DNA of 64,000 nucleotides from Hydrogenophaga sp. IBVHS1 (GTDB lineage: Bacteria > Pseudomonadota > Gammaproteobacteria > Burkholderiales > Burkholderiaceae_C), in the NCBI RefSeq assembly GCF_002127265.1, contig NZ_NFUU01000001.1, positions 1,930,040 through 1,994,039 of the forward strand, read 5' to 3'. Below, one piece after another: positions 6,760 to 21,892 of this stretch. The translations under genes were made by a program, and so were the position numbers. Under the pieces are notes generated by a model. That model was not told where the DNA came from, made no database searches, and was given only the letters and a program-made list of their open reading frames with translations. How positions within the stretch are numbered: the first letter of the stretch is position 1; the number at the start of each line of letters is the position of its first letter.

Positions 6760-8079
6760 CTAGCCAGTGACGCGCTCCCGCACTCTGGAGGGAGGCAGCG
6801 CGATCACAAATGTGGAGCCTTCACCCAGCGCGCTGTGCACCTCGATGCGTCCGCCGTGCCGCTGGGCCACGTGTTTGACGATGGCCAGTCCGAGGCCCGT
6901 GCCACCTGTTTCGCGCGAGCGGCTGCGGTCGACCCGATAAAAGCGCTCGGTCAGTCGCGGCAGGTGCTCGGCCGCAATGCCGGGACCCGTATCGGTCACG
7001 TAAAACTCCACCCAGCCATCTTCGCGCATGCGCCAGCCAGCGCGGATCTGACCGCCTCCGGGCGTGTAGCGCACCGCGTTGCTCAAGAGATTGGACATGG
7101 CGCTGAGCAGCTCGGTTTTCGCTCCCGAAATCCAGAGGTCGGGGCCAGGCATCCCCTGCACATCGTGCGGCGTCGGCGCAATGGCCTGTGTGAGTCCACG
7201 CGCCTCCTGCACCGCATGCGTCAGCAGTTCTTCGCTGTCGATCCACTCGCCAGGTCCAGGCGCTGGGCTGCCTTCGAGGCGAGAAAGGGTGAGCAGATCA
7301 CTCACCAGCGTCTGCATGCGCTGGGCCTGCTGGCTCATGAGGTCGAGGTAGCGCGAGCGGTCGGCCTCTTCAAGCGGAATGTTCTGCATGGTTTCCACGA
7401 ACCCGCTGAGCACCGTGAGCGGCGTGCGTATCTCGTGCGAAACGTTGGCCACGAAATCGCGCCGCATGGTCTCGGCCAGCTGCACGGCGGTGACATCGCG
7501 TGTGATCATGAGCTTGCGCTTCTTGCCGTAAGGGTGAACCTGCAGAGAAATCTTGGTCGGCTGCGACGGCCTGGGCCCAGGACCGTCGATCTGAATTTCA
7601 TGACCGAAATCGCCCCCACCCAGGTAAGCCGTGAACGCCGGATTTCGCACCAGATTGCGCACGTACTGGCCGAGGTCGCGTTGTGGGTCGAATCCCAGGT
7701 GGTTGGCTGCGGTGAGGTTGGACCACTCGATGCGCCCGGATGAATCCAGCAGCACCACGCCATTCGGCGAAGCCTGGATGGCGGCCAGAAAATCCTCCAG
7801 CCGGGCGTCGCTGCTTTGTGCCTTCTTCTCCAGCTTCTTGATGAGCTTGCGGCAGCGGTCGACCATTTCGCCCCAGGTACCGCCGATGCGAGGTGCGCGT
7901 GCGCCATCCGCCTTGGTGAGCCAGCGCAGCACGCGACGTGCACGCAGACCGTCCAGAAACGACCAGGCCAAAGCGCCACAAAGCGCACCGCCAAACGTCC
8001 AGCCGGCGGAATCCTGCATCCAGCCAAGAACCGCTCCCAGCGCCACCAGGAGCAGCAGTTCAATCGCCCGACGGGTCAT
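6760..8079 (-). CDS. phoR: phosphate regulon sensor histidine kinase PhoR
   Basis: 439 aa. Two N-terminal membrane segments (about residues 5-20 and 27-43) without a large periplasmic domain are followed by a basic stretch, a PAS domain (about 95-195), HisKA with the phospho-acceptor H215 (VSHEIRTPLT), and a HATPase domain with N box (LLSNAVRYTPGG), G1 (DTGPGIAAEHL) and G2 (GTGLGLAIVKHV). This is the classic PhoR layout, in which phosphate is sensed through Pst and PhoU rather than by an external domain. Its ATG overlaps the phoB stop by four bases (8076-8079). Confidence 0.95.
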   Translation of the reverse strand: MTRRAIELLLLVALGAVLGWMQDSAGWTFGGALCGALAWSFLDGLRARRVLRWLTKADGARAPRIGGTWGEMVDRCRKLIKKLEKKAQSSDARLEDFLAAIQASPNGVVLLDSSGRIEWSNLTAANHLGFDPQRDLGQYVRNLVRNPAFTAYLGGGDFGHEIQIDGPGPRPSQPTKISLQVHPYGKKRKLMITRDVTAVQLAETMRRDFVANVSHEIRTPLTVLSGFVETMQNIPLEEADRSRYLDLMSQQAQRMQTLVSDLLTLSRLEGSPAPGPGEWIDSEELLTHAVQEARGLTQAIAPTPHDVQGMPGPDLWISGAKTELLSAMSNLLSNAVRYTPGGGQIRAGWRMREDGWVEFYVTDTGPGIAAEHLPRLTERFYRVDRSRSRETGGTGLGLAIVKHVAQRHGGRIEVHSALGEGSTFVIALPPSRVRERVTG

Positions 8080-8807
8080 GCCGTGGGGATGCTGGCGCCC
8101 TGAGCCGGTTTCCCGGTGTTGTTCATCGCCGTGAGGCGATAGCCAGCGCCGCGCACCGTCTCAACCATGCCGGACGCTTCACCCAGAGATTCTCTCAATC
8201 GTTTGACATGCACGTCCACGGTACGCTCCTCGATGAAAACATGGTCTCCCCAGACCTTGTCGAGCAGCGTACCACGGGTGTGTACCCGCTCAGCATGCTT
8301 CATGAGGTAGTGCAACAGCTTGAATTCGGTAGGCCCCACCTTGAGTTCGGAGCCCCGGAATGTGACCCGGTAGGTGGCTGCGTCGAGCGAGAGTTCGCTC
8401 ACCTGCACGGAGTCGTTCACCACCTCGGGCGCTCTGCGGCGCAGCACCGCCCGAATGCGAGCGAGCAGCTCCTGCGTGGAAAACGGCTTGGTGATGTAGT
8501 CGTCCGCACCGGCGTCCAGCCCCTGTACCTTGTCGGACTCGTCGCTTCGCGCAGTCAGCATCAGGATGGGAATGGTCTTGGTGCGCTCGTTCTTGCGCCA
8601 CTGGCGAGCCAGAGAGGCACCGCTCTCACCGGGGAGCATCCAGTCCAGCAGGATCACATCGGGCAGCACAGCATCGACTTCGCGCTGCGCAGCGATTCCG
8701 TCGAACACGACCGTCGGCGCAAAGCCGTTGTGCCGAAGGTTGACGGCGATCAGTTCGGCAATGGACGGCTCGTCCTCAACGACAAGAACGCGAGGCAGTT
8801 TTCTCAC
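8076..8807 (-). CDS. phoB: phosphate regulon response regulator PhoB
   Basis: OmpR/PhoB-class regulator, 243 aa. The receiver domain has the acidic pair E11-D12, the phospho-acceptor D55 (LLDWMLPG) and the K of ITKPF. The C-terminal winged helix has VGPTEFKLLHYLMKH and the recognition-helix region ERTVDVHVKRLRESL. The start is GTG 8807, in frame with the conserved RKLPRVLVVEDEP and preceded by GGGGGC; extending the frame upstream would translate a dispersed intergenic repeat. It is the predicted binder of the PHO boxes noted below. Confidence 0.95.
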   Translation of the reverse strand: MRKLPRVLVVEDEPSIAELIAVNLRHNGFAPTVVFDGIAAQREVDAVLPDVILLDWMLPGESGASLARQWRKNERTKTIPILMLTARSDESDKVQGLDAGADDYITKPFSTQELLARIRAVLRRRAPEVVNDSVQVSELSLDAATYRVTFRGSELKVGPTEFKLLHYLMKHAERVHTRGTLLDKVWGDHVFIEERTVDVHVKRLRESLGEASGMVETVRGAGYRLTAMNNTGKPAQGASIPTA

Positions 8808-8838
8808 GCCAATGCCCCCATAGATGGCAGCGCAGAAC

Positions 8839-8906
8839 CGGCTTTGCCGGGCTGCAGCTGGCGCCCCCCTCCCAGGGGGGTGACGCGAAGCGGCGCGGGG
8901 GGGAGC
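8839..8906 (+). repeat. dispersed GC-rich repeat, copy A (phoU-phoB gap)
   Basis: Begins CGGCTTTGCCGGGC, contains the inverted run CCCCCCTCCCAGGGGGG and ends GCGCGGGGGGGAGC. Related copies lie at 20231-20293 and 57980-58050. This copy fills most of the spacer between phoU and phoB; its G/C hairpin could lower phoBR transcription relative to pst-phoU. Confidence 0.7.
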
Positions 8907-8913
8907 ATATTTC

Positions 8914-9615
8914 TCATCCGACGACCGACTCCACTTTCTCCATGGAGGTGTGGCGAACGTCCTCACCCTTCACGATGAAGATGATCTGTTCGGCAATGTT
9001 CTTGGCATGGTCGCCCACGCGCTCGATGGACTTGGCCAGGAACAGCAGGTCCAGGCTGGGCGAGATGGTGCGGGGATCTTCCATCATGTAGGTGATGAGC
9101 TTGCGCAGAAAGCCGTTGTATTCGTCGTCGATCGCATTGTCGCCCTTGATGATGGCCACCGCCATCGTGGTGTCCAGACGGGCGAACGAGTCGAGCGTCT
9201 TGCGCAGGAGCGCAGCGGCCAGGTCGGCGGCCACGCGCAACTCCGAGCTGGGCAGATTGCGGGGCGAACCGTTTTCGATGATGGATTTGACCATGCGGGC
9301 AATGCGCGCCACTTCGTCGCCAGCGCGCTCGAGGTTCTGCGTGGTGCGCGAAATCGCCATGAGGAAACGCAGGTCGCGCGCGGTGGGTTGACGGCGGCCG
9401 ATGGTGGAAATGATCTCGTGATCAATCTGCAGTTCCATCTGGTTGATGCGGTTTTCATTCTCGATCACCTGCTCTGCCGATTCCATGCTCATGTGCACCA
9501 GGGCGTAAACGGCCTGATGAAGCTGCGATTCGACCAGGCCGCCCATCTCGAGCACCTGCGTGGAGATGGAGTTGAGTTCGGCGTCGAACTGGCTGGAGAT
9601 GTGTTTGTCGCTCAT
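8914..9615 (-). CDS. phoU: phosphate transport system regulator PhoU
   Basis: 233 aa, all-alpha, made of two PhoU three-helix repeats. The recognisable metal-binding signatures are E-R-A-G-D-E-V in LERAGDEVARIARM and IERVGDHAKNIAEQ. PhoU links Pst activity to PhoR and keeps the Pho regulon off when phosphate is plentiful. It lies directly downstream of pstB and upstream of phoB. The gene starts MSDKHISSQFDAEL after an AGGAG-like sequence. Confidence 0.95.
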   Translation of the reverse strand: MSDKHISSQFDAELNSISTQVLEMGGLVESQLHQAVYALVHMSMESAEQVIENENRINQMELQIDHEIISTIGRRQPTARDLRFLMAISRTTQNLERAGDEVARIARMVKSIIENGSPRNLPSSELRVAADLAAALLRKTLDSFARLDTTMAVAIIKGDNAIDDEYNGFLRKLITYMMEDPRTISPSLDLLFLAKSIERVGDHAKNIAEQIIFIVKGEDVRHTSMEKVESVVG

Positions 9616-9641
9616 GGAGGTGTCTCTCGTTGGGGCCTGGA

Positions 9642-10448
9642 TCAGCCGAAGCGTCCGGTGATGTAGTCTTCCGTCTCGGTCTTGGCGGGCTTGAAGAAGA
9701 TCTGTTCGGTGGTGCCGAACTCGATCAGCTCACCCAGGTACATGTAGGCGGTGTAGTCGCTGCAGCGCGCGGCCTGCTGCATGTTGTGCGTGACGATGGC
9801 GATGGTGTAGTCCTGCTTGAGTTCGTGCACCAGTTCTTCGACCTTGCCTGTGGAAATGGGATCGAGCGCGGAGGTGGGTTCGTCGAGCAACAACACCGAG
9901 GGCTTCACGGCCACACTCCGTGCAATACACAAGCGCTGCTGCTGTCCGCCCGAGAGCGACAGACCACTCTGGTGCAGTTTGTCTTTCACCTCTTTCCACA
10001 GCGCCGCCTTCGACAGCGCCCATTCCACGCGCTCTTCCATGTCGTTCTTGTCCAGATTTTCGTAGAGCTTCACGCCGAAGGCGATGTTGTCGTAGATCGA
10101 CATGGGAAACGGCGTGGGCTTCTGGAACACCATGCCGATGCGCGCGCGCAGCAGGTTGATGTCCTGCTTCGCGTCCAGGATGTCCTGACCGTAAAACAGG
10201 ATCTGCCCCTCGGCACGCTGGCCAGGGTAAAGGCTGTACATGCGGTTGAGCGTGCGCAGCAGCGTGGATTTGCCACAACCCGAGGGCCCGATGAACGCGG
10301 TCACCTTGCGTTCCTCGACGTTCATGTTGACGTTCTTCAGGCCTTGAAACTTGCCATAGAAGAAGCTCAGGTTGCGAAGTTCGAGCGCGTTTCGCGTGGC
10401 GGGCTTCTCGGCGGGCTGGGTGGCGAGTGCGGGCATGGTCATGTCCAT
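9642..10448 (-). CDS. pstB: phosphate ABC transporter ATPase PstB
   Basis: 268 aa ABC ATPase with Walker [10 protein letters not shown] (residues 54-62), signature [14 protein letters not shown], Walker [13 protein letters not shown] and the switch His in IVTHNMQQA. It ends with the PstB-typical YITGRFG. Together with PstA and PstC it energises phosphate import. The order is pstS-pstC-pstA-pstB-phoU on the minus strand. Confidence 0.97.
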
Positions 10449-10485
10449 GAGAATGGTGTTTCCGGGTTTGTTGGTGTTGGTTTGA

Positions 10486-11355
10486 TCAGTTCGCCGATTT
10501 TTCCCGGAGGAACACGCGCGCCACGATGTTGAGCACCAGCACTGAGAGGGTAATGAGCAATGCGCCGCCCCAGGCCAGCCGGATCCAGTTGTCGTAGGGG
10601 CTGAGCGCGAACTGGAAAATTACCACCGGCAAATTGGCCATGGGCGCGCCCATGTCGGTGCTGAAAAACTGGTTGTTGAGCGCCGTGAACAACAGCGGTG
10701 CGGTTTCTCCACTGATGCGGGCCACTGCCAGCAGCAGACCGGTCATCACGCCACTGCGGGCCGCGCGCAGCGTCACCATGGTGGCCACTTTCCAGCGCGG
10801 AGCACCCAGGGCGAAGGCCGCTTCCCGCAGGCTGCCGGGCACCAGGCGCAGCATGTTCTCGGTGGTGCGCACCACCACAGGCACGGCAATCAGCGAAAGC
10901 GCAAGGCTCCCAGCCCACCCTGAGAAATTGCCCACTGTGGCCACCGCGATGGCGTAGACAAACAAGCCCAGCACGATGGAAGGCGCCGACAGCATGATGT
11001 CGGTCACGAAACGCGTGAGTTCGGCCGTCTTGCTTTGATCGCCGTACTCGGCGAGGTAGACCCCGGCCAATATGCCAATGGGCGTGGAGACCAGAACCGA
11101 AAAGCCCACCATCATCAGGCTGCCCACGATGGCGTTGGCGAGGCCACCGCCTTCGCTGCCGGGCGCGGGCGTGGACTGCGTGAACATGTTCCAATCCAGC
11201 GCCTTGAAGCCGTTGGTGAACAGCACGCTCAAAATCCAGAGCAGCACCACCAGGCCGAGCACCATGGCCCCCATGGACAGCGTGAGGCCGATGGCGTTGG
11301 AGCGCTGGCGCTTCTTGTAAAGGGATTGATTGAATTCCATCGAATGTGACCTCAC
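10486..11355 (-). CDS. pstA: phosphate ABC transporter permease PstA
   Basis: 289 aa inner-membrane permease with about six transmembrane helices and a conserved ABC permease EAA-type loop ([21 protein letters not shown]). It partners PstC and takes its energy from PstB. Its start overlaps the pstC stop by four bases (11352-11355), so the two are translationally coupled. [15 protein letters not shown] is the usual PstA periplasmic segment. Confidence 0.95.
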
Positions 11356-12350
11356 AGGCCCTTGGCCTTCTCGGCCCGCATCAACATGATCTTGGCCGCC
11401 GACAGCACCAGGAAGGTGATGACGAACAGCAGGAAGCCCAGCGCAAAGAGCGTTGAGAGGTGGAAGTCGGCAGCCTCACCGAATTCGTTGGCCAGCGTAG
11501 ACGCAATGGAGGTGCCTGGCGAGAACAGCGAGGTGGGCATGCGGTTGGCGTTGCCGATCACAAAGGTCACGGCCATCGTTTCGCCCAGCGCTCGACCCAG
11601 CCCCAGCATGATCCCGCCAATCACGCCCTTTTGCGTGTAGGGCAACACCACGCGCCGCACCACTTCCCAAGTGGTGCAACCCAGGCCGTAGGCCGACTCG
11701 CGCAGGATCGGTGGAACGATCTCGAACACATCGCGCATCACCGCCGCCACAAAGGGCAGCACCATGAAAGCCAGCACGATGCCAGCGGCCAGAATGCCAA
11801 AGCCGTTGGTGCTGCCACCAAACAAGAAACCCACCAGCGGCATGCCGCCGAGCATCTGCTGCACCGGCACCTGGAAGTAATCTGCGAACAGCGGCGCAAA
11901 CACGAACAGGCCGAACATGCCGTAGATGATGGACGGTACCGCCGCCAGCAGTTCAACCGCCGTACCCAGAGGGCGGCGCAGCCAGACCGGGCAGGTTTCG
12001 GTAAGGAACAGCGCAATGCCGAAGGCAAGCGGCACGGCGATCAGCAGCGCGATGCCAGCACTGGCCAGCGTGCCGACGATGGCAATGGCCGCGCCAAATT
12101 CTTCGTTGATGATGTCCCACTCAACGCGCCAGACGAATTCGATACCGAATTTCTGGAAGGTGGGCCAGGCATTGATGAACAGCGAAACTATGATGCCGAG
12201 CAATGCAACCAGCACCAGCAGCGAAAAAGCCTGCGTGAGGCGGTGAAACACAACGTCCTCGAACCGCTGGCGTCTGGCGATCGACGCCATGTTCGGGTTG
12301 TCCAGTTCCATGGACACGGGCTGCTGGCTCATGGTGGTTCCCACGTTCAT
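11352..12350 (-). CDS. pstC: phosphate ABC transporter permease PstC
   Basis: 332 aa permease with about six membrane helices and the EAA-type loop [19 protein letters not shown]. The start is taken as ATG 12350, preceded by GGGAG five bases upstream; the open frame extends 13 codons further without a ribosome-binding site, and another ATG lies six codons inside. It is downstream of pstS with a spacer of about 80 bp that shows a short palindromic stretch (CGCATCCGC..GCGGATGCG) able to trim or partly terminate the abundant pstS message. Confidence 0.93.
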
Positions 12351-12428
12351 ATTGACTCCCAAGTCGGTTCTCCCCGACCCCGAACGCACATCCGCTCGAG
12401 GCGGATGCGTGTTTCGGGGTAGCCTGCC

Positions 12429-13460
12429 TTACTTGGCGATCTGCGTCCAGACCTTCGAACGGATTTGAGCCGTCAGGGCGTCAGGCAGGGGCACGTAGTC
12501 CAGCTCAGCAGCCAGTCCCTTGCCGTTCTTGAACGCCCAGTCAAAAAACTTCAGCACTTCGGCGGATTGCGCCTTGTCGGCCGGATCCTTGTACATCAGG
12601 ATGAACGAAGCGGTGCTCACGGGCCAGCTCTCGGCGCCCTTGGCATTGACCATCGAAATACCCATGCCGGGTGCGCTGAACCAGTCGGCACCCGCCGCGG
12701 CGGCAGCAAACGCCTTGTCGTCAGGGCTGACGTACTTGCCGTCGGCGTTCTGCAGCTGCAGGAAGTTCATGTTGTTCTTCTTCACGTAGGCGTACTCCAC
12801 GTAGCCCAGCGCGCCCTTGACACGGTTGACGTTGGCGGCCACGCCTTCGTTGCCCTTGCCACCCACGGAAGAAGCTGCAGGCCACTTCACGGCGGCGCCC
12901 TTGCCAACGGTGTCGGCCCAATCCTTGCTCACGGCGGTGAGGTAGTCGGTCCAGTTGAAGGTCGTGCCCGAACCGTCGGCGCGGTGCACCACGGTGATGT
13001 TGGCGTCTGGCAGGGTCTTGCCCGGGTTCAGGGCGACCAGCTTGGGATCGTTCCACTTGGCGATCTTGCCGAGGAACATTTCGGCCAGCACGGGGCCGGT
13101 CACGCGCAGCTCGCCGGGCTTGAAGCCTTCGAGGTTGATCACGGGCACGGTGCCACCGATGATGGCGGGAAACTGAACCATGCCGTCTTTGTCCAGGTCG
13201 GCGCCGGCCACCGGCGCGTCGGTAGCACCAAAGGCCACGGTTTTGGCGCGGATCTGGCGAATGCCACCCGAAGAACCGATCGACTGGTAGTTCAGGCCGG
13301 TGCCGGTTTCCTTCTTGTAGGCTTCAGCCCACTTGGCGTAAATGGGGAACGGGAAGGTAGCGCCTGCGCCGGTGATGTCGGCGGCCAGGGCGGAACCCAT
13401 GCCTGCGGTGGCCATCGCGGCGGCTGCCACGGTCTTGAGGAAAGTGCGTTTGGTGAACAT
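12429..13460 (-). CDS. pstS: periplasmic phosphate-binding protein PstS
   Basis: 343 aa. The Sec signal peptide (basic MFTKRTFLK, hydrophobic core, cleavage near GSALA-ADI) is followed by the mature PstS start ITGAGATFPFPIYAKW, with later phosphate-contact motifs SIGSSGGIRQI, FGATDAPV and HRADGSGTTFNW. It captures orthophosphate for PstCAB. It is first gene of the pst-pho operon, with AAGGAG before the ATG and a PHO box in its promoter. Confidence 0.97.
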   Translation of the reverse strand: MFTKRTFLKTVAAAAMATAGMGSALAADITGAGATFPFPIYAKWAEAYKKETGTGLNYQSIGSSGGIRQIRAKTVAFGATDAPVAGADLDKDGMVQFPAIIGGTVPVINLEGFKPGELRVTGPVLAEMFLGKIAKWNDPKLVALNPGKTLPDANITVVHRADGSGTTFNWTDYLTAVSKDWADTVGKGAAVKWPAASSVGGKGNEGVAANVNRVKGALGYVEYAYVKKNNMNFLQLQNADGKYVSPDDKAFAAAAAGADWFSAPGMGISMVNAKGAESWPVSTASFILMYKDPADKAQSAEVLKFFDWAFKNGKGLAAELDYVPLPDALTAQIRSKVWTQIAK

Positions 13461-13496: not shown

Positions 13497-13530
13497 ACTC
13501 TAGGCAGGCTATGTGACAACACCGTGACAA
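13497..13530 (-). promoter_or_regulatory. PHO box and -10 of the pst operon
   Basis: On the minus strand two TTGTCAC units (13530-13524 and 13519-13513) are spaced exactly 11 bp apart, matching the tandem PhoB consensus CTGTCAT-N4-CTGTCAT. Ten bases further lies TAGAGT (13502-13497), a fair -10 in the position PhoB-dependent promoters require. The pstS ATG is 37 bases beyond the -10. The divergent ppx gene begins 130 bp to the right. Confidence 0.85.
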
Positions 13531-13659
13531 CTGCGCTCTGTCACAACCCACGGCTTGCGGCCCCGACTGAACCCTGGCAGCCATGCGTCACAATTCGGCC
13601 CTGACTCTGCTTCACCCTGCCGCCCCATCGGCCCTGTTCGGCCCGCCACCCCGCCACGC

Positions 13660-15144
13660 ATGCAAAACGGAACCCTTCTAGCCGCCATTGACCTTGGCTC
13701 CAACAGTTTCCGTCTGGAGATCGGTCGCTACCATTCGGGGCACATCGAGCGCATCGAATACCTCAAGGAAACCGTGCGCCAGGGCAACGGGCTGGACGAG
13801 GACAAATTGCTCAGCCAGGCCGCCATGGAGCGCGGCTGGGAGTGTCTGGCACGGTTTGCCGAGCGATTGCACGGCTTCAAGAAGCAGCAGGTGCGAGCTG
13901 TGGCCACGCAGACCCTGCGCGAAGCAAAAAACCGGGAGGAATTCCTGCGCAACGCCCAGGCCATCCTGGGTTTTTCGATTGATGTGGTGTCTGGTTACGA
14001 GGAAGCCCGGCTGATTTACCAGGGCGTATCGCGCCTGCTGCCCCATTCGGACGAAAAACGCCTGGTGGTCGACATCGGCGGCCGCTCCACCGAGATGATT
14101 CTGGGCGAAGGCTACCGGGCACGCACCATGGAGTCCTACCGGCTGGGGAGCGTGGCTTGGTCAAACCGGTATTTCCCACGCGGCCAGTTCAACGCCGCCG
14201 CCTTCAAGACCGCCGAGGTCGCCGCCAAGGCGGTGATCGACGACGCGCTGGACAAATTTGCGCCCTCCGAATGGAACGTGGCCTACGGCTCCTCTGGAAC
14301 GGTGGGCGCGGTCGCCGATATGCTGGGAGCCAATGGCTGGGCCACGGGATTGATCACGCGATCGGGGTTGGACTGGCTCGTGGACCGGATGATCAAGTCC
14401 GGCAGTTCGGACCAGATGCGACTGGAAGGCCTCAAGGACGACCGCCGACCGGTGATTGGCGGCGGCGTGAGCGTGTTGCGCGCTATTTTCGACCTGTTCG
14501 ACATCCAGCAAATGGTGCCGGCCCAGGGCGCGCTGCGCCACGGTGCTCTGTACGACCTGATCGACCGCGACACCGATGGCGGCGACGTGCGCGAGCGCAC
14601 CGTGCTCTGGCTGGCCAACCGTTTCTCGGCCGATGAGGCGCAGGGCAAGCGCGTGAGCGACGTGAGCACCGCCCTGTTCTCGCAGATTGCGGCACTGGAC
14701 GCGCAGAACGAGCGTTATTCGCAGAAGCTGGCATGGGCTGCACGCCTACACGAAATCGGCACGCACATTTCTCACGAACGCTCGCATCACCATGGTGCCT
14801 ACATCCTGGACAACGTCGACGCGCGCGGCTTCTCTCTGCCAGAACTCCACCGAATGAGCCAGCTGGTGCTGGGCCAGCGCGGCAAGCTGCGCAAGCTGGA
14901 GGAATCGCTGCATGACGAGCTGTTCGCGAAGCAGCTCATGGCGTTGCGTCTGGCCGTGCTCCTGTGCCATGCGCGCCAGAAGCCTGAGTACGAATCCGTC
15001 AAGCTCAGCTACAAGTCGCGCGCATTCAAACTCGCCACCAACCCTGGCTGGGCACGGCGCTATCCGCAATCGGCCTGGCTGCTGGGTGAAGAAGTGCTGG
15101 CCTGGCAAAAGACCGCCTGGAAGTTCACCGCCGACATCCGGTGA
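13660..15144 (+). CDS. ppx: exopolyphosphatase (Ppx/GppA family)
   Basis: 494 aa. The actin-fold N-terminus has the phosphate-1 motif AAIDLGSNSFRLEIGR and the phosphate-2 motif VVDIGGRSTEMILG, plus the catalytic Glu region in GYEEARLIYQG. The C-terminal part is an HD-like helical domain (LHEIGTHISHERSHHHGAYIL). It hydrolyses terminal phosphate from polyphosphate, or pppGpp in GppA members. ATG 13660 fits the conserved start; the frame is open for 35 more codons without homologous sequence. It is divergent from pstS and opposed in function to ppk nearby. Confidence 0.92.
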   Translation: MQNGTLLAAIDLGSNSFRLEIGRYHSGHIERIEYLKETVRQGNGLDEDKLLSQAAMERGWECLARFAERLHGFKKQQVRAVATQTLREAKNREEFLRNAQAILGFSIDVVSGYEEARLIYQGVSRLLPHSDEKRLVVDIGGRSTEMILGEGYRARTMESYRLGSVAWSNRYFPRGQFNAAAFKTAEVAAKAVIDDALDKFAPSEWNVAYGSSGTVGAVADMLGANGWATGLITRSGLDWLVDRMIKSGSSDQMRLEGLKDDRRPVIGGGVSVLRAIFDLFDIQQMVPAQGALRHGALYDLIDRDTDGGDVRERTVLWLANRFSADEAQGKRVSDVSTALFSQIAALDAQNERYSQKLAWAARLHEIGTHISHERSHHHGAYILDNVDARGFSLPELHRMSQLVLGQRGKLRKLEESLHDELFAKQLMALRLAVLLCHARQKPEYESVKLSYKSRAFKLATNPGWARRYPQSAWLLGEEVLAWQKTAWKFTADIR

Positions 15145-15180
15145 CACCGTTGCGTCATGCCTCTGACACACCGTTGTCAT
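15141..15180 (+). promoter_or_regulatory. array of four 11-bp-phased PHO-like units
   Basis: Seven-base units GTGACAC (15141), GCGTCAT (15152), CTGACAC (15163) and TTGTCAT (15174) are phased at exactly 11 bp, and all keep G3, C5 and A6 of CTGTCAT. The first covers the ppx stop codon. The array ends 64 bp before the histone-like gene. No -10 stands at the canonical 10-bp distance; TATAAA (15186) and TATATA (15195) are the nearest, so PhoB control is a hypothesis. Confidence 0.4.
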
Positions 15181-15188
15181 AAAGATAT

Positions 15189-15206
15189 AAACCGTATATA
15201 CGGTTT
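15189..15206. promoter_or_regulatory. 18-bp perfect palindrome (operator)
   Basis: AAACCGTATATACGGTTT is a perfect 18-bp inverted repeat overlapping the likely -10 region of the histone-like gene (TTGTCA at 15174 as -35, TATATA at 15195 as -10, 15-bp spacer). It lies 38 bp before the ATG. A dimeric DNA-binding protein is implied; the product of the gene itself, with a predicted ribbon-helix-helix head, is an obvious candidate. Confidence 0.6.
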
Positions 15207-15244
15207 AGAATTCCCGGCTTCACAACCAACGCCGGAGTTCATTC

Positions 15245-15703
15245 ATGGCCAGTCAGAGCAGCAAGAGCAGCCCCAAGAAACCCAAGCTGGTGCGCGACAG
15301 CTTCACCATACCGAAGACTGAATTCATCGCCATCGACGCGCTCAAGACACGCGCCATTGCGCTGGGCACCAGCGTGAAGAAGAGCGAGCTGCTGCGCGCT
15401 GGTCTGATGGTCTTACAAGGACTGAGCGACGCCGCTTACAAGGCAGCGCTGATCGCAGTCCCCACGCTCAAGACGGGGCGCCCCACCGGAGCCGACAAGC
15501 CCAAGGCGGCGGCCCCAACGAAAGCGGCTGTCAAGTCACCTGCCAAAGCCGCTCCCAAACCCGCCGTGAAGGTCGCGAGCAAGAAGGCAACGGCACCCAG
15601 GCCGGCCGCGAAAGCGCCAGCCAAAAAAGTGGTGGCCAGCAAAGCTGTGGCCAAGAAGCGCGTCGCCCGGAAGGTCGCAACGCCTGCCGTCAAATCTGCC
15701 TGA
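15245..15703 (+). CDS. histone H1-like protein with ribbon-helix-helix-like head
   Basis: 152 aa. Residues 1-70 read as strand-helix-helix (LVRDSFTIPKTEF, then DALKTRAIALGT, then KKSELLRAGLMVLQGLS), a pattern like ribbon-helix-helix DNA-binding domains. Residues about 80-152 are a low-complexity Lys/Ala/Pro tail with KAAAP, KSPAK and PAKK repeats, like eukaryotic H1 and bacterial AlgP/HctA-type proteins. It is probably a nucleoid protein; the tail would bind DNA, or possibly polyphosphate, by charge. It sits between ppx and the ppk-sixA operon with an 18-bp palindrome in its promoter. The function is inferred only. Confidence 0.6.
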   Translation: MASQSSKSSPKKPKLVRDSFTIPKTEFIAIDALKTRAIALGTSVKKSELLRAGLMVLQGLSDAAYKAALIAVPTLKTGRPTGADKPKAAAPTKAAVKSPAKAAPKPAVKVASKKATAPRPAAKAPAKKVVASKAVAKKRVARKVATPAVKSA

Positions 15704-15709
15704 ATCGGC

Positions 15710-16192
15710 TCAGATCATTTCAGGCGTCTGAACGGTCACCAGGACCGTCTGCCCCAGGGTGCCGCGTTCGCGGTGGCGCAGCCACCACACGGCGCCTTTC
15801 TTCACGGAGCAGTCGTCTTCCTGAAGGCCCAGCAACCGGGCCACCACGCGGCCCAGCGTGGGCTGGTGGCCAACCACCACCACCGGAGACTTTCCGTGGG
15901 GCCATTGCACCAGTTCAAGCAAGGCTTGCGGTGGGGCATCGGGGACCAGGGCCTCACTCAGTTTGAATTTGCGCCCCAGCGCCATGGCGGTCTGCTCGCA
16001 GCGCTGGGCCGGGCTGGTCCAGATGCGTGCGCCATCCGGCAACTGCCGATCCAGCCAGGCGGCCATGCGGGTTGCCTGTTTTTCGCCTCTGGACGTCAGC
16101 CGGCGCGCCAGGTCGGCGGCGTCTCCCGGCCGACCGAGAATGAGGTCGGGGTGATCCTGGGCCTCGGCATGCCGCCACAGAATCATGTCCAT
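15710..16192 (-). CDS. sixA: phosphohistidine phosphatase SixA
   Basis: 160 aa histidine-phosphatase-superfamily protein. It has the catalytic LWRHAEA (H8), the conserved SPAQRCEQTA arginine motif and the second His in VVVGHQPTLGRV. SixA enzymes remove phosphate from phosphohistidine on HPt domains or PTS proteins. ATG 16192 lies four bases after the ppk stop, so it is the last gene of the olsB-plcP-agt-ppk operon. sixA-ppk adjacency suggests a role in phosphate physiology. Confidence 0.88.
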   Translation of the reverse strand: MDMILWRHAEAQDHPDLILGRPGDAADLARRLTSRGEKQATRMAAWLDRQLPDGARIWTSPAQRCEQTAMALGRKFKLSEALVPDAPPQALLELVQWPHGKSPVVVVGHQPTLGRVVARLLGLQEDDCSVKKGAVWWLRHRERGTLGQTVLVTVQTPEMI

Positions 16193-16196
16193 TTCG

Positions 16197-18278
16197 TCAG
16201 CCCTTGCTGCCGTAGCGCGCCATGAGGCTGGCCTGCGCCGAATGCAGGGTGGCTGCGCGCTGGCGCCCACCGCCCTGCTGGCCTGCCGGCACGTAGCGAC
16301 CATCCGCCTGCAGAAGCCAGGCGTCTTTGGTGTCGTGCAGGTAGGCCGAGAGGCATTCGTCCATGATGCGGTGGCGCAGCGATGCATCGGTCACCGGCCA
16401 TGCGAGTTCGATGCGTCGCAGCATGTTGCGGTTCATCCAGTCGGCGCTGGAAAGCCACAGTTCCTCGTCATCACCGGTGCGGAAGTAGAACACGCGCGAA
16501 TGCTCAAGCAAGCGCCCGATCACCGACCGGATGCGCACGTTGTCGGTAACGCCAGGCACCTGTGCGGGCAGGATGCAGGCACCCCGCACGATCAGGTCGA
16601 TCTTCACGCCCTGTTGAGACGCGAGGGCAAGCGCACGTGCCATGGGCTCGTCGGTCAGCGCGTTCATCTTCAGGATGATGCGGGCGTCCTTGCCCGCCTT
16701 GGCCGCGACGCCAGCGGCCTCCACCTTGTCCAGCATGGCCTTGTGCAGGTGAAACGGCGCGATCAGGGCCTTGTTGAGCTTGGGCAGGCGGTTCTGGCTT
16801 GCCAGGTGCAGGAAGATCTGTTCGAGGTCGGCGGTAAGTGCGTCATCGGCTGTGAGGTAGCTGAGGTCGGTGTAGAGGCGCGCGGTACCGGGGTTGTAAT
16901 TGCCGGTGGAAAGGTGCGCATAGCGGCGAAGGCCACCCGCCTCACGCCGCGTGATGAGCAGCATCTTGGCGTGTGTCTTGAGCCCAACCACGCCATACAC
17001 CACCTGCGCGCCCACCGACTCAAGGCGTTCTGCGTAGTTGATGTTGGCCTCCTCGTCAAAGCGCGCCTTGAGCTCCACCACCGCCGTCACTTCCTTGCCT
17101 CGGCGAACCGCCTCGCGGAGCAGGTTCATGAGCTCGGATTTCGCGCCGGTGCGGTAGATCGTCTGCTTGATGGCCAGCACGTCCGGATCTTCCACCGCTT
17201 CGCGCAGGAAGCCCAGCACCGCGTCAAAGCTCTCGTAGGGCTGGTGGATCAGCACGTCGCCGTGCCGCAGCCGCTCGAAGTACGACTGCCCCGGCGTGAG
17301 CTGCAGCGGCCATCCGGCGTTGTAAGTTTCAAACCGCAGCGAGGGCGCGTCCACGTTGTCGATAAGCTGGTTCAAACGCACCAGATTCACCGGCCCCGGC
17401 ACGCGGTACAGCGCCATTTCGGGGAGCGCAAATTGCTCGAGCAGAAAGCTGGAGAGATACGGCGAACAGCCTGCCGACACTTCCAGACGAAGCGCCTGAC
17501 CGTAGTGGCGCTGTTGCAGCCCCTTGCGCAACGCGGTGCGCAGGTTTTTCACTTCTTCCTCGTCCACCGCCAGATCGGAATGCCGCGTGACGCGGAACTG
17601 GGAGAACTCGGTGACCTGCCGCCCAGGAAAGAGATCGCCCAGGTGCGAGCGAATGAGGCTGGAGATGGAGACGAAATGCGTCTGCTTCGACCCCTTGACC
17701 GGCGGCATGCGAAAGAAACGCGGCAGGATGCGGGGCACCTTGACGATGGCGATTTCGTTCTCGCGGCCAAAAGCGTCCTTGCCGGTCAGGCGCACGATGA
17801 AGTTGAGCGACTTGTTGGCCACCTGAGGGAACGGATGCGCCGGGTCCAGCCCCACCGGCATCAGCAAGGGCTGCACCTCCTTGATGAAGAACTCCTTCAC
17901 CCAGCGGCGCTGGCGCGCATTGCGTTCGCCGTGCGAGATCAGCTTGATGCCCTTCTTTTCCAGCAACGGGAGCAGTTCGTCGTTGTAGATGGCGTACTGC
18001 TGCGCCACCAGCGCGTGCACTTCGGTGGAAAGTTGCTCGAAAGTCTGGGTGGTGTAGAGGCCGCGCTGTTCGTTGGCCTTGGCCGCCGTGAGGTGGGGCG
18101 CCACGCGCACCTCGAAGAACTCGTCAAGGTTGCTGGAGACGATGCTGAGGTAGCGCAGCCGTTCGAGCAAGGGCACGTCCGGCCGCCGCGCCCAATCCAT
18201 GACACGCTCGTTGAAAGCCAGGATGCTGTGGTCGCGGTCGAGAAGGGGGAGCTTCTGGTTGGGGGTGGAGCCGCTCAT
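16197..18278 (-). CDS. ppk1: polyphosphate kinase 1
   Basis: 693 aa, the usual length. It has the N-terminal PPK1 domain (DRDHSILAFNERVMDWA), middle domain and two PLD-like catalytic domains. The autophosphorylated His is in KTHAKMLLI, followed by YAHLSTGNYN; the second-site region is around LEHSRVFYF. It makes polyphosphate reversibly from ATP. The ATG overlaps the preceding glycosyltransferase stop by four bases. A PHO box and -10 lie just upstream and predict a second, nearly leaderless transcript. Confidence 0.96.
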   Translation of the reverse strand: MSGSTPNQKLPLLDRDHSILAFNERVMDWARRPDVPLLERLRYLSIVSSNLDEFFEVRVAPHLTAAKANEQRGLYTTQTFEQLSTEVHALVAQQYAIYNDELLPLLEKKGIKLISHGERNARQRRWVKEFFIKEVQPLLMPVGLDPAHPFPQVANKSLNFIVRLTGKDAFGRENEIAIVKVPRILPRFFRMPPVKGSKQTHFVSISSLIRSHLGDLFPGRQVTEFSQFRVTRHSDLAVDEEEVKNLRTALRKGLQQRHYGQALRLEVSAGCSPYLSSFLLEQFALPEMALYRVPGPVNLVRLNQLIDNVDAPSLRFETYNAGWPLQLTPGQSYFERLRHGDVLIHQPYESFDAVLGFLREAVEDPDVLAIKQTIYRTGAKSELMNLLREAVRRGKEVTAVVELKARFDEEANINYAERLESVGAQVVYGVVGLKTHAKMLLITRREAGGLRRYAHLSTGNYNPGTARLYTDLSYLTADDALTADLEQIFLHLASQNRLPKLNKALIAPFHLHKAMLDKVEAAGVAAKAGKDARIILKMNALTDEPMARALALASQQGVKIDLIVRGACILPAQVPGVTDNVRIRSVIGRLLEHSRVFYFRTGDDEELWLSSADWMNRNMLRRIELAWPVTDASLRHRIMDECLSAYLHDTKDAWLLQADGRYVPAGQQGGGRQRAATLHSAQASLMARYGSKG

Positions 18279-19354
18279 ATATGACGATTATTGAACGATC
18301 CCATGACATTTGCATGACAAGCGGGTCGGGCGCTCTTCGGCCTGGGCAGCACACTGAGATGGGCCACGAACAACTCGGCGGCCCTGCCCCAGCCAAACTG
18401 CAGCGCACGTTCCCGGGCTTCGAAGCGTTTGACCTTGAGCGCTGAACGCCAGGCCTCGCGCAGGTCCTCGTGCATCGCGCCTGCGCTGCTGTCACCCAGA
18501 ACCTGCAACGGCCCGTCCACCGGGTAGGCGGCCACCGGCACGCCGCAGGCCATGGCTTCGAGCATGACGAGGCCAAAGGTTTCGTTGCGGCTGGGGAAAA
18601 CGAAAACGTCCGCCGCTGCGTACACCTGCGCCAATTCGTGGCGCGGCAGCACACCCAGCCAGTGCACGTTGGGATACCGATGGCGCAATGCCGATTCGAG
18701 CGGGCCGACACCGCAAACCACTTTGCTGCCCGGCACGTCGAGCTGCAGAAATGCCTCGATGTTCTTCTCAAAGGAAATTCGACCCACGAAGAGACTCACG
18801 GGATGGGCGAGCGGCCCCAGCGCATGACAGGCGATCGCCGGGTCAGCCACGGCGAACAGCCTCGTGTCCACGCCATGGGTCCAGGCTTTCAGGCGCTGGA
18901 AGCCCCTGGCCTGCAGCATTTCAAGCACGCCCTGCGTGGGCACCATCACGCCCCTGCTGGGCCGGTGAAAGCGGCGGAACAGCGCGTACCCCCACGACAG
19001 CGGAATGCCCAGCGCGGCATGCAGGATTTCTGGAAACTTGGTGTGAAAGGCGGTAGTGAAAGGGAGTTGGCGGCGCATACAGTGGCGCCGCGCCGCCCAG
19101 CCCAGCGGGCCTTCCGTGGCAATGTGAATGGCATCTGGCGCGGCCGCATCAATAAGCGTGCGCAGGCGACGACCCGGAAACACGGCGATGTCGATGCCCG
19201 CATAGCCCGGGCAAGGGCGGGTGCGGAACTGCCCCGGTTGAATCACCACCACCTCGTGGCCCATCGCCTGCAACTGCCGCGCCAGCTCGACCAGCGTGGT
19301 CACCACCCCATTGACCTGTGGCTGCCAGGCATCGGTCACGATCAGTATCTTCAT
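18275..19354 (-). CDS. GT4 glycosyltransferase, Agt-like (candidate glycolipid synthase)
   Basis: 359 aa GT-B fold. The N-terminal glycine loop is in MKILIVTDAWQPQVNGVV with the usual TAFHTKFPE segment. The C-terminal nucleotide-sugar domain has FVGRISFEKN and the EX7E motif in NETFGLVMLEAMACG. Start ATG 19354 has AGGAG upstream; an in-frame ATG at 19369 is less well placed. Its position next to a PlcP-like phosphoesterase matches alpha-proteobacterial and marine plcP-agt pairs, where Agt glycosylates diacylglycerol under phosphate starvation. Mannosyltransferases of the same family are an alternative. Confidence 0.65.
   Translation of the reverse strand: MKILIVTDAWQPQVNGVVTTLVELARQLQAMGHEVVVIQPGQFRTRPCPGYAGIDIAVFPGRRLRTLIDAAAPDAIHIATEGPLGWAARRHCMRRQLPFTTAFHTKFPEILHAALGIPLSWGYALFRRFHRPSRGVMVPTQGVLEMLQARGFQRLKAWTHGVDTRLFAVADPAIACHALGPLAHPVSLFVGRISFEKNIEAFLQLDVPGSKVVCGVGPLESALRHRYPNVHWLGVLPRHELAQVYAAADVFVFPSRNETFGLVMLEAMACGVPVAAYPVDGPLQVLGDSSAGAMHEDLREAWRSALKVKRFEARERALQFGWGRAAELFVAHLSVLPRPKSARPACHANVMGSFNNRHI
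18287..18320 (-). promoter_or_regulatory. PHO box and -10 of ppk, inside the upstream gene
   Basis: On the minus strand TTGTCAT (18320-18314), four bases, ATGTCAT (18309-18303) form a PHO box of correct 11-bp period. Exactly ten bases later AATAAT (18292-18287) matches five of six -10 positions. The box lies within the last codons of the glycosyltransferase gene. Transcription would begin about 18280-18278, at the ppk ATG (18278). Confidence 0.8.
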
Positions 19355-19378
19355 GCGCGTCTCCTGCAAGGTGCCAGT

Positions 19379-20296
19379 TCAGGAACTTTGACTTTCCTGC
19401 TCTGCCGCCAGCGACGCGGGCTCGGTCGAGGGACGCCAGTGAACGAGCTCGAGCCGTCCATCGAAATGCTCGACCAGGGCGGAAAGGCTCTCCACCCAGT
19501 CGCCATCGTTGCAGTACAGCGTGCCATCGATGACGCGCATCTCGGGCCGGTGAATGTGCCCGCAGACCACACCCTGGTAGCCGCGTTGCCGCGCTTCTGC
19601 CGCCACGGCGCGTTCAAAATCGGTCACGTAATTCAACGCGCTCTTGACCTTGTGCTTGAGGTATTGCGACAGGGACCAATAGGGCAGCCCCATGCGGGCG
19701 CGCAGTGAATTGAGATGGCGGTTGAGCCGCAGAGTGAATTCATAGGCGTTGTCGCCCAGATAGGCCAGCCACTTGGCGCACTGGATCACGCCATCGAAAT
19801 GATCGCCGTGAACCACCCAGAGCCGGCGACCGTCTGCCGTGGTGTGCACCGCTTCCTCGGCCACCTCGATGCCGCCGAACCGGTGACCACAGAACTGGCG
19901 CGCGAACTCATCGTGGTTGCCGGGCACGAACACCACCCGGCACCCCTTCCGGGAGCGGCGCAACAGCTTCTGCACCACGTCGTTGTGCGCCTGCGGCCAG
20001 AACCAGCGCCGGCGCAGTTGCCAGCCGTCGATGATGTCCCCCACCAGGTACAGCGTCTGGCTCGGGTGGTGCTTGAGGAAGTCCAGCAGCGGCCTGGCCT
20101 GGCAGCCGGCGGTGCCCAGATGCAGGTCGGAGATGAAGACCGCACGGTAGCGGGCTCGTTCGCCGCCATCGCCGTGGGGCTCGTCATCGCGCAGCGGGGC
20201 GGCGCCCACATCTGCGAGGGCACCGCGGAACTGGCTTTGCCAGGCCGCCAGTGCCGCCCCCTGGGGGGTCGTGCGAAGCGCGGCGGGTGGTGCCAT
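19379..20296 (-). CDS. calcineurin-like phosphoesterase, PlcP-like (COG2908)
   Basis: 305 aa metallophosphoesterase with all metal motifs: SDLHLG (D57, H59), GDIIDGW (D87), PGNHDE (N127, H128), HGDHFD (H163) and GHIHRPE (H247, H249). The segments GTAGCQA, RRWFWPQAHNDVVQKLLR and GLPYWSLSQYLK resemble PlcP, the phospholipase C of Sinorhizobium lipid remodelling, more than LpxH, although annotation pipelines often call it UDP-2,3-diacylglucosamine hydrolase. ATG 20296 follows the previous stop by one base with GGGAG upstream. Residues 2 to about 23 are encoded by a dispersed repeat, so the N-terminus is probably dispensable. Confidence 0.7.
   Translation of the reverse strand: MAPPAALRTTPQGAALAAWQSQFRGALADVGAAPLRDDEPHGDGGERARYRAVFISDLHLGTAGCQARPLLDFLKHHPSQTLYLVGDIIDGWQLRRRWFWPQAHNDVVQKLLRRSRKGCRVVFVPGNHDEFARQFCGHRFGGIEVAEEAVHTTADGRRLWVVHGDHFDGVIQCAKWLAYLGDNAYEFTLRLNRHLNSLRARMGLPYWSLSQYLKHKVKSALNYVTDFERAVAAEARQRGYQGVVCGHIHRPEMRVIDGTLYCNDGDWVESLSALVEHFDGRLELVHWRPSTEPASLAAEQESQSS
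20231..20293 (+). repeat. dispersed GC-rich repeat, copy B (inside plcP-like CDS)
   Basis: CTGGCTTTGCCAGGCCGCC start, central CCCCCTGGGGGG and a GCGCGGCGGG end align with copies at 8839 and 57980. On the minus strand it is read as codons 2 to about 23 of the PlcP-like protein. In the other two places the element is non-coding. Confidence 0.65.
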
Positions 20297-20297
20297 G

Positions 20298-21158
20298 TCA
20301 GGCTCCCAGAAAGTGCTTGCGGTAACGGGCTGGCAAATCAGAAATCCGCATGAGCATGGGCAGGTCAGCGGCGTTGAAATCCGGGTCCCAGGCCGGTGGG
20401 CCCAACACCTTGGCGCCGAGCCTCAGGTAGCCCTTGATCAGTGCGGGCGGCTCGACGTCGAGCGTGTCGTCGAGCTGTTCGATCGGGAGCGGCAGGCGTG
20501 GCCGCACGTGGAAGTCGATCGGTGCCAGATGAGTCTGCTTGACCTGGCGCCAGATGCTGGCTGCAGCATGACCCCCACCCACCACACCGTGCGGGCCTTC
20601 GTGCTGCATGGGAATGCTGGCGCAGCCGATCATGGTGTCGAGCTGGTTGCGCACCATGAACTCGGCCAGAGCCCCCCACAGCGCCATGATGACGCCGCCG
20701 TGACGATGCTCACGGTGGACACAGCTGCGCCCCAGCTCCACCATGCGCTCGCGAACCGCACGCAGGCGGGTGAGATCGAACTCGGTATCGCTGTAGGTAC
20801 TGCCCACGCGGCGAGCCTGGGCGGGGGTGAGCACGCGGTAGGTGCCTATCACTTCCCGGCTGGTGGCATCGCGCACCAGCAGGTGTTCACAGAAGTCGTC
20901 GAACAGGTCCACATCGTGACCCGGCACTGCCTCGGAGAGAATGGCGCCCATCTCGCCAGCGAACACCGAGTGCCTCAAGCGCTGCGCTTCACGAACCTCG
21001 TCAAGATGCCGCGCCCAGGAAACCTCAATGCCGCCCGTGGCCGGCTGAGGGATGGGCGCCACCAGGGGTGAACCCGGGATGACAACGCGTGGATGAAGTG
21101 ACCCCCGTGGCAAGGAAACCAGGGAGAGATTCAGGGTCGGGATGGGAAGCTCTTTCAT
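20298..21158 (-). CDS. GNAT N-acyltransferase, OlsB-like
   Basis: 286 aa of the COG3176 putative-hemolysin/OlsB family. The acceptor-site core is EAQRLRHSVFAGEMG, followed by FCEHLLVRD, VIGTYRVL and the CoA-loop region ELGRSCVHREHRHGGVIM then TMIGCASIPMQ. OlsB N-acylates ornithine with a 3-hydroxyacyl-ACP as the first step of phosphorus-free ornithine lipids; the OlsA partner is not in this window. ATG 21158 has AGGAG six bases upstream; longer in-frame starts exist at 21218 and 21260. It is first gene of the five-gene operon. Confidence 0.65.
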   Translation of the reverse strand: MKELPIPTLNLSLVSLPRGSLHPRVVIPGSPLVAPIPQPATGGIEVSWARHLDEVREAQRLRHSVFAGEMGAILSEAVPGHDVDLFDDFCEHLLVRDATSREVIGTYRVLTPAQARRVGSTYSDTEFDLTRLRAVRERMVELGRSCVHREHRHGGVIMALWGALAEFMVRNQLDTMIGCASIPMQHEGPHGVVGGGHAAASIWRQVKQTHLAPIDFHVRPRLPLPIEQLDDTLDVEPPALIKGYLRLGAKVLGPPAWDPDFNAADLPMLMRISDLPARYRKHFLGA

Positions 21159-21264
21159 GCTGGGCTCCTGTTGCAGAACGCCCGTCTGAGGCGTGGAGTT
21201 GATTGAAGCTTTGGTCATGAAAAGGCAGTGTGCGAACCGCAGATGTCGAGCCGGTGGCAATCAC

Positions 21265-21282
21265 ATGAAGTTTTGATGACTT
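21265..21282 (-). promoter_or_regulatory. weak PHO-box-like site upstream of the olsB-like gene
   Basis: Reading the minus strand, AAGTCAT-CAAA-ACTTCAT matches 12 of 18 positions of the PHO consensus with correct period. No -10 lies ten bases downstream, and the segment is also an inverted repeat (GAAGT...ACTTC), so it could be a different operator. Confidence 0.25.
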
Positions 21283-21319
21283 CGGAACACCCTCGAGGTG
21301 CCTGCCAGAATACGCAGCT

Positions 21320-21892
21320 GTGACGCCCAGCCCCACCCTCCTTCGCGCCCAACTGCGCTGCCACCCCGCCATGCCGGCGAGCCTGCCCCTTTCACTTTCT
21401 GTGGAGGTGCGGACCCAATCCGACGGATTGCGGTTGCACTACAGCCTGGTGGGCGATATCGACTCCCTGCGTCTGCCGGCACCCGCCGCACCCGTGCCCA
21501 CCGATGGCCTGTGGCAACACACCTGTTTTGAAGCTTTCGTGGCCGCCGACGGTGCGGCCGCTTATCAGGAATTCAACTTCTCCCCGTCCACCGCCTGGGC
21601 GGCCTACCGCTTCAGCGGCGAGCGCGAGCGCGATACGACCGCCGAGGCGCTGCGTCGCGTGCTGCTGGTGCCACCACAGGTGCAAAATGCGCCCCGCCTG
21701 CTCACGCTCACCGCCCGCGTGCCGCTTGATGCCCTGCCCCGCAGCCCCGCGGTGCTCAGTCTGGGCCTTTCGGCGGTGATCGAAGAACGCAGTGGCCACC
21801 GGAGTTACTGGGCATTGCACCATCCCCTTCCGCAGCCCGATTTCCATCACCGCGACGGCCACACACTGCGCCTGGCCGCGCCTCTGCATTGA
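21320..21892 (+). CDS. DOMON-like domain protein
   Basis: 190 aa, beta-rich, starting at GTG with no signal peptide. The conserved blocks GLWQHTCFEAFV, YQEFNFSPSTAWAAYRF and SLGLSAVIEE are those of a short uncharacterised DOMON-like family common in Burkholderiales. DOMON folds bind haem or sugars, but no ligand residue can be assigned here. It is divergent from the olsB-like operon and 11 bp upstream of the NamZ-like gene, probably co-transcribed with it. Confidence 0.6.
   Translation: MTPSPTLLRAQLRCHPAMPASLPLSLSVEVRTQSDGLRLHYSLVGDIDSLRLPAPAAPVPTDGLWQHTCFEAFVAADGAAAYQEFNFSPSTAWAAYRFSGERERDTTAEALRRVLLVPPQVQNAPRLLTLTARVPLDALPRSPAVLSLGLSAVIEERSGHRSYWALHHPLPQPDFHHRDGHTLRLAAPLH

Follow-up and report, generated by a model that had tools for sequence, protein, structure and literature searches.

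Lipid-replacement genes beside polyphosphate kinase in a predicted phosphate-starvation cluster of Hydrogenophaga sp. IBVHS1

Lipid remodelling and polyphosphate (polyP) are usually treated as separate answers to phosphate shortage. In the 64,000-nucleotide stretch of Hydrogenophaga sp. IBVHS1 analysed here (the window; the genome has 4,434,775 bases in 3 contigs) candidate genes for both stand in a single row, olsB-plcP-agt-ppk-sixA. Three kinds of described system come close to it; published accounts are cited by PMC number. In the plcP-agt pairs of Pelagibacter, Pseudomonas aeruginosa and Methylosinus trichosporium agt directly follows plcP, as here (PMC8528852, PMC4796936, PMC9239053), and the P. 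aeruginosa pair is also preceded by a Pho box (PMC8528852). Unlike these pairs, the row in the window has olsB ahead and ppk-sixA behind; "polyphosphate" is absent from the main texts of PMC4796936 and PMC9239053, and "ppk" from that of the former. The Pho-controlled olsB genes of Burkholderia sensu lato and Acinetobacter baumannii have a Pho box at olsB, with olsA apart or not Pho-controlled (PMC7814305, PMC11828411), whereas in the window olsB stands in one row with plcP, agt and ppk. A conserved olsB context is mentioned in PMC7814305 as data not shown. In ppk-ppx loci, ppk1 is accompanied by a nearby ppx and an adjoining sixA-like gene, as in the window, which differs in having lipid-replacement genes in front and a Pho-box-like site at ppk. 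Each part is known separately; their repeated pairing appears undescribed, since none of the literature matches listed reports, in its title or abstract start, a linkage of ppk to plcP or olsB; most subscription journals and their supplements lie outside the scope of that search.

We propose that the row is probably a phosphate-starvation cluster made up of two tandem PhoB-controlled units, olsB-plcP-agt and ppk-sixA, with read-through from the first into the second. The proposal is built on family-level identities of the encoded proteins, on Pho-box-like sites and their conservation, and on a linkage that recurs among relatives. The five genes are as follows.

20298..21158, minus strand: OlsB-like N-acyltransferase, 286 aa (PF13444, 4e-33; two OlsB models, 147.7 and 135.3 bits)
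19379..20296, minus strand: PlcP-like metallophosphoesterase, 305 aa (Pfam and NCBIfam comparisons, motif alignment, identities and tree)
18275..19354, minus strand: Agt-like GT4 glycosyltransferase, 359 aa (PF13439 and PF00534), whose long C-terminal end spans the Pho-box-like site of ppk
16197..18278, minus strand: ppk1, polyphosphate kinase 1, 693 aa (TIGR03705, 861.9 bits, cut-off 465.85)
15710..16192, minus strand: SixA-like histidine phosphatase (TIGR00249, 58.8 bits, cut-off 74.5)

Unit 1 would start from a Pho-box array ahead of olsB. Its PlcP would remove the phosphate head group from phospholipids, leaving diacylglycerol for glycosylation by Agt, and OlsB would carry out the first step towards an ornithine-type lipid, to be completed by an unlinked OlsA-like enzyme. 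Unit 2 would be transcribed from its own Pho box within the end of agt, and probably by read-through from unit 1 as well. PhoB would thereby induce lipid replacement and PPK together and lipid phosphate would be spared: starved cells would need less membrane phosphorus and would have PPK ready to bank phosphate once it is freed or returned. PhoB binding, transcription, the lipid products and any flow of lipid phosphate into polyP are what we infer from the sequence.

Identities of the encoded proteins

A sequence-only reading of the window had described five closely spaced minus-strand genes, among them a PlcP-like phosphoesterase likely to be misannotated as LpxH and an Agt-like glycosyltransferase. 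The coordinates and the gaps of 1, 24, -4 and 4 bp, taken from olsB through to sixA, agree with that description, and by sequence comparison the phosphoesterase is PlcP-like, not LpxH. In a tree of 45 rows, 22 PlcP-type sequences, the window protein among them, are set apart from 23 LpxH sequences with split support of 100/100. The nearest neighbours of the window protein are PlcP of Acidovorax and Polaromonas, which probably puts the genome in the Comamonadaceae; one PlcP-type row (Fuscovulum) sits on a very long branch. Both LpxH models fail on it (42.8 bits, cut-off 190.35; 53.1 bits, cut-off 134), and a separate LpxH elsewhere in the genome clears the same two cut-offs (200.7 and 240.2 bits). 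The two proteins of this genome are 25% identical over 122 residues. Identity is 56% to the PlcP-type protein preceding a glycosyltransferase in a P. aeruginosa plasmid record (L241) and 51% to a PlcP-type protein of S. meliloti (L240). Across 17 aligned PlcP-type sequences D57, H59, D87, N127, H128, H163, H247 and H249 are invariant; we take these residues to be the metal-binding site of metallophosphoesterases.

Presumably L240 and L241 are the characterised plcP genes, judging by gene order and by the sinR/sinI neighbours of the S. meliloti gene; the plasmid plcP-glycosyltransferase pair is equated with PA3219/PA3218 by gene order. In P. aeruginosa PA3219 is a phospholipase and PA3218 an MGDG-making glycosyltransferase (PMC8528852).

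That the phosphoesterase might instead be LpxH, and the row a lipid A or general envelope operon, is hardly credible. LpxH is the closest family in NCBIfam and in the PDB, and 24 of the 32 plasmid records with a hit give the match an LpxH-type name (UDP-2,3-diacylglucosamine diphosphatase). The identity is nevertheless rejected on the scores below cut-off, the genome's own LpxH and the split in the tree, and the naming of the records is the misannotation that had been predicted. It makes visible how frequently PlcP-type proteins are called LpxH.

Several observations on plcP were made in passing. There is a second, more distant PlcP-type group (L218-L230) in several Burkholderiales families, about 41-55% identical to the window protein. 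Three P. aeruginosa plasmid records hold a plcP-type gene, and a glycosyltransferase follows it in L241, the record examined. The S. meliloti record titled plasmid pSymB (L240, L271) is 3.7 Mb long and has mutS and sinI/sinR-type genes; the title is probably wrong and the record a chromosome. Similarly, a metagenome genome titled Klebsiella pneumoniae (L078) has a Burkholderiales-like plcP-agt pair, and its title is probably wrong.

The GT4 glycosyltransferase shares 51% identity across 339 aa with the (Agt1-like) glycosyltransferase that follows plcP in the P. aeruginosa record, and on this likeness it is Agt-like, as had been read from the letters. For OlsB and SixA, also named in the earlier reading, the family likeness stands and full membership does not; both fall below the NCBIfam cut-offs and are called OlsB-like and SixA-like here. 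The acyltransferase, which is the only PF13444 protein found in the genome, is matched best by the OlsB models but stays under their cut-offs of 350 and 320 bits, respectively; these models carry short names for Rhodobacter- and Brucella-type proteins, and a beta-proteobacterial OlsB may fail them. It is 30% identical to the S. meliloti protein taken as OlsB, and no PDB chain was matched by its sequence. In each of three Burkholderia genomes it has a single match of 52-53% identity, which we take to be OlsB of the Bcal1281 type. The B. cenocepacia OlsB is Bcal1281 (PMC7814305). An OlsA candidate of 245 aa (142 bits to an OlsA model, cut-off 300) is unlinked to the olsB row, which parallels A. 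baumannii, where a Pho box is found at olsB and none at olsA (PMC11828411).

PPK1 is clear from its score, far above the curated cut-off, whereas SixA misses its own. As a side observation, PPK1 acts via phosphohistidine and is adjoined by a SixA-like phosphohistidine phosphatase; PPK itself is a conceivable SixA target.

Pho-box-like sites and linkage among relatives

Three Pho-box-like sites matter for the proposal.

21243..21282, minus strand: array of four units with 11-bp spacing before olsB (32.6 bits, the best position in the window on both strands)
18303..18320, minus strand: site before ppk, within the 3' end of agt (12/14, the best two-unit match of the window)
13513..13530, minus strand: site before pstS (11/14)

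The strict two-unit consensus CTGTCATNNNNCTGTCAT (PMC8528852) detects the olsB array poorly, with 9 of 32 loci reaching 10.5 and 7 of 32 reaching 11, and a four-unit matrix was used for that reason. This 40-bp matrix was trained on the olsB upstreams of 24 of 31 relatives with the window excluded; scores for the relatives are circular, and the window alone gives a result independent of the training. In the window the olsB array matches the four-unit pattern with 0 mismatches, and the two runners-up, at 23.0 bits each, lie before ppk and before a lysine-rich open reading frame (ORF) described below. At up to 2 mismatches the pattern has 3 matches in the window against a mean of 1.06 in shuffles. 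By the two-unit consensus 16 of 25 loci have a site of at least 11/14 in the 200 bp upstream of ppk, against 1.6% of random stretches. The corresponding counts for agt, sixA, plcP and olsB are 0 of 23, 0 of 24, 3 of 44 and 7 of 32 (the window being counted in every case). The same threshold of 11 is reached in 17 of 30 ppk loci of the same genus (a second set, the window counted), against 2.0% of random stretches. These 30 are the best-scoring among the 38 genomes with a match. The phosphate control claimed in the sequence-only reading has thus taken the form of predicted Pho-box-like sites before olsB, ppk and pstS.

A physical linkage of lipid remodelling to polyP had been noted for this one locus; it is recurrent, and wider than that reading knew. 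A PlcP match is present in 149 of 300 genomes of the order Burkholderiales, with family labels copied by hand, and 120 plcP neighbourhoods were taken as the best 120 of these genomes' places after the window's own, one per genome, a choice that leans to closer homologues. The neighbourhoods extend up to 9.5 kb to either side, as far as the contig reaches; linkage that spans contig ends escapes detection. In this range ppk is found in 19 of the 120, spanning 8 of 30 families, pstS in 14 and ppx in 13. Each of 28 control genes, drawn from between 28 and 64 kb in the window and possibly less conserved than ppk, is present in 0-2. Linkage of plcP to ppk is beyond chance. In geometry it is mixed: ppk lies downstream on the same strand in 3 neighbourhoods (plus the window), upstream on the same strand in 7, downstream on the opposite strand in 5 and upstream on the opposite strand in 4. 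On a 103-row PlcP tree, from which 18 neighbourhoods with no ppk and less than 5 kb on one side were left out, 9 changes of the linked state are required, and well-supported branches force at least 5 of them; shuffled labels require 18.6 on average. As judged from this tree, the linkage is clustered by descent, yet gained or lost several times. In a draw of 150 genomes 97 have both olsB and ppk, and in 17 of these, from 10 families, the two genes are no more than 15 kb apart, by coordinates copied by hand. The 80 named loci, the best of at least 589, were not used for frequencies.

Closer relatives display the same genes in several arrangements. In 40 same-genus genomes plcP and ppk are both above threshold in 34, and are together in 26 (the window's included) and apart in 8. 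Among the 30 same-genus ppk loci, 7 have olsB-agt-ppk with plcP elsewhere and 4 have olsB-plcP-ppk without agt. In the former (L288, L290, L295, L300, L303, L304 and L315) Agt is retained without its usual PlcP neighbour. All 5 Variovorax loci examined have olsB-ppk-sixA with a facing ppx and plcP elsewhere, and the order sixA-olsB-ppx (opposite)-ppk is found in two Cupriavidus genomes and one Paraburkholderia. Where plcP is not beside ppk and both olsB and ppk were searched, olsB lies within 12.5 kb of ppk in 9 of 10 genomes; in the tenth, Aquitalea, the two are on different contigs. Gene order, and the Variovorax loci in particular, make plcP and agt seem modular parts of a site occupied by olsB and ppk. 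The association of olsB with ppk seems the older one, and plcP and agt would have been gained or lost there, a direction of change that we infer.

Probable transcription units and a possible tie between lipids and polyphosphate

It had been claimed that all five genes share one transcript, which finds no support in that simple form: ppk-sixA has a conserved Pho-box-like site of its own in the end of agt. Directly upstream of ppk lies agt in 24 of the 30 same-genus loci, at a spacing of 55-99 bp in 21, 8 bp in 1 and a 4-bp overlap in 2 (the window and G332). Where same-genus loci combine an upstream agt with a site of at least 11, the ppk site falls inside the agt frame in every one of the 15; in the first set this is so in 9 of 12 such loci (window counted; L051, L053 and L081 are the others). 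Since the overlap is rare in the genus and the site lies in the agt frame, the overlap is best read as the end of agt extending over the ppk promoter region, and it is no proof of a single transcript. No terminator-like site was found on the minus strand from the olsB start to that of ppk, which makes additional read-through likely. A sigma-70 promoter scan of 15100-21400 found none, though such a scan says little about PhoB promoters.

A single five-gene operon, transcribed from the olsB promoter only and with the ppk site inactive in this strain, has some of the same facts in its favour and is improbable rather than absurd. One strand, short gaps and the lack of a terminator-like site are features of a single operon; in the window the ppk site is very near the ppk start; and in L059 and L314 agt overlaps ppk with no good site seen. 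Against it, the ppk site outscores every other two-unit match of the window and is shared by many relatives whose agt-ppk spacing is 38-147 bp. It is also doubtful, and to our minds distinctly unlikely, that lipids and polyP have no functional tie, such that Pho-regulon genes simply gather round pst-pho-ppx-ppk, with plcP and olsB just two among the many. In favour of this one may cite that pstS lies near plcP about as often as ppk does, that no ppk was seen in 101 of the 120 plcP neighbourhoods, and that, of the 17 ppk loci scanned in genomes with plcP not beside ppk, 11 have a site of at least 11, a scan which covered -250 to +30 of ppk (280 bp), had no matched control, and included 5 Variovorax loci with olsB in front. 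Gathering alone does not predict the tight same-direction adjacency of olsB or plcP to ppk in Comamonadaceae. Such gathering does not conflict with the regulatory half of the two-unit explanation, and the independence of the ppk Pho box from an adjacent plcP favours co-regulation as the common theme.

A stronger version would have real phosphorus traffic: lipid phosphate released in starvation would be banked as polyP by the co-induced PPK and spent later, membranes and polyP would form one exchangeable store, and selection for the exchange would be what repeatedly drew olsB and plcP towards ppk. We hold this to be a tentative possibility and on balance unlikely, because co-regulation alone explains everything seen. 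The two-unit explanation itself, which we prefer, has several points against it. Ppk of Pseudomonas putida BIRD-1 is unresponsive to phosphate (PMC5082522). By the strict two-unit consensus the window olsB site scores only 9/14, and the 8 sites of at least 10.5 in the window are no more than the 6-12 of ten shuffled windows, so that the argument rests on where the sites are placed and on their conservation. The olsB array is missing in 5 of 31 relatives, the ppk site is below 11 in 13 of the 30 same-genus loci and in 9 of the 25 of the other set, and the loci are kin, so that the counts of sites are not of independent events. Lastly, the ppk site ends 24 bp ahead of the start codon, which would give a nearly leaderless ppk mRNA and weighs against its use in this strain. 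From the repeated pairing, in which both partners have Pho-box-like sites, it is predicted that polyP synthesis is within the starvation response of Comamonadaceae and related Burkholderiales; the pairing would also let a feeding of lipid phosphorus into polyP be tested by compact genetic means.

Genes between sixA and the pst operon

The row was also said to adjoin pstSCAB-phoUBR and ppx. The proximity is real; continuity with the pst operon is not, since plus-strand ppx and a small lysine-rich ORF separate sixA from pstS. The five-gene row is thus near the pst operon and not continuous with it. The neighbouring features are listed below.

15141-15703, plus strand: lysine-rich ORF of 152 aa, between sixA and ppx
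15141-15180: four-unit Pho-like array of the lysine-rich ORF (four-unit matrix)
13555..15144, plus strand: ppx, Ppx/GppA exopolyphosphatase (PF02541, 1.3e-70; TIGR03706, 311.3 bits, cut-off 307)
6760..13460, minus strand: pstSCAB-phoU-phoB-phoR (Pfam matches for all seven proteins, the individual pst names being assigned from gene order)

The true start codon of ppx probably lies downstream of 13555.

The lysine-rich ORF, which had no Pfam match, is beside ppx in 18 relatives as well. Its product has a tail rich in lysine, alanine and proline and an N-terminus that by eye looks like a ribbon-helix-helix. A Pho box before this ORF was rejected as a common feature: among 19 loci only the window reaches 10.5/14, and with the four-unit matrix 2 of 19 (the window and L066) reach 10. 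The P. aeruginosa protein AlgP, whose tail is of this kind, is located on polyP granules (PMC9239181), and by this analogy the product is a candidate polyP-granule protein. Ahead of the ORF stands a perfect 20-base palindrome, TAAACCGTATATACGGTTTA (15188-15207), with no second copy in the window even when 3 mismatches are allowed. Similar sequences precede the ORF in several relatives, and the palindrome could be an operator of the lysine-rich ORF itself.

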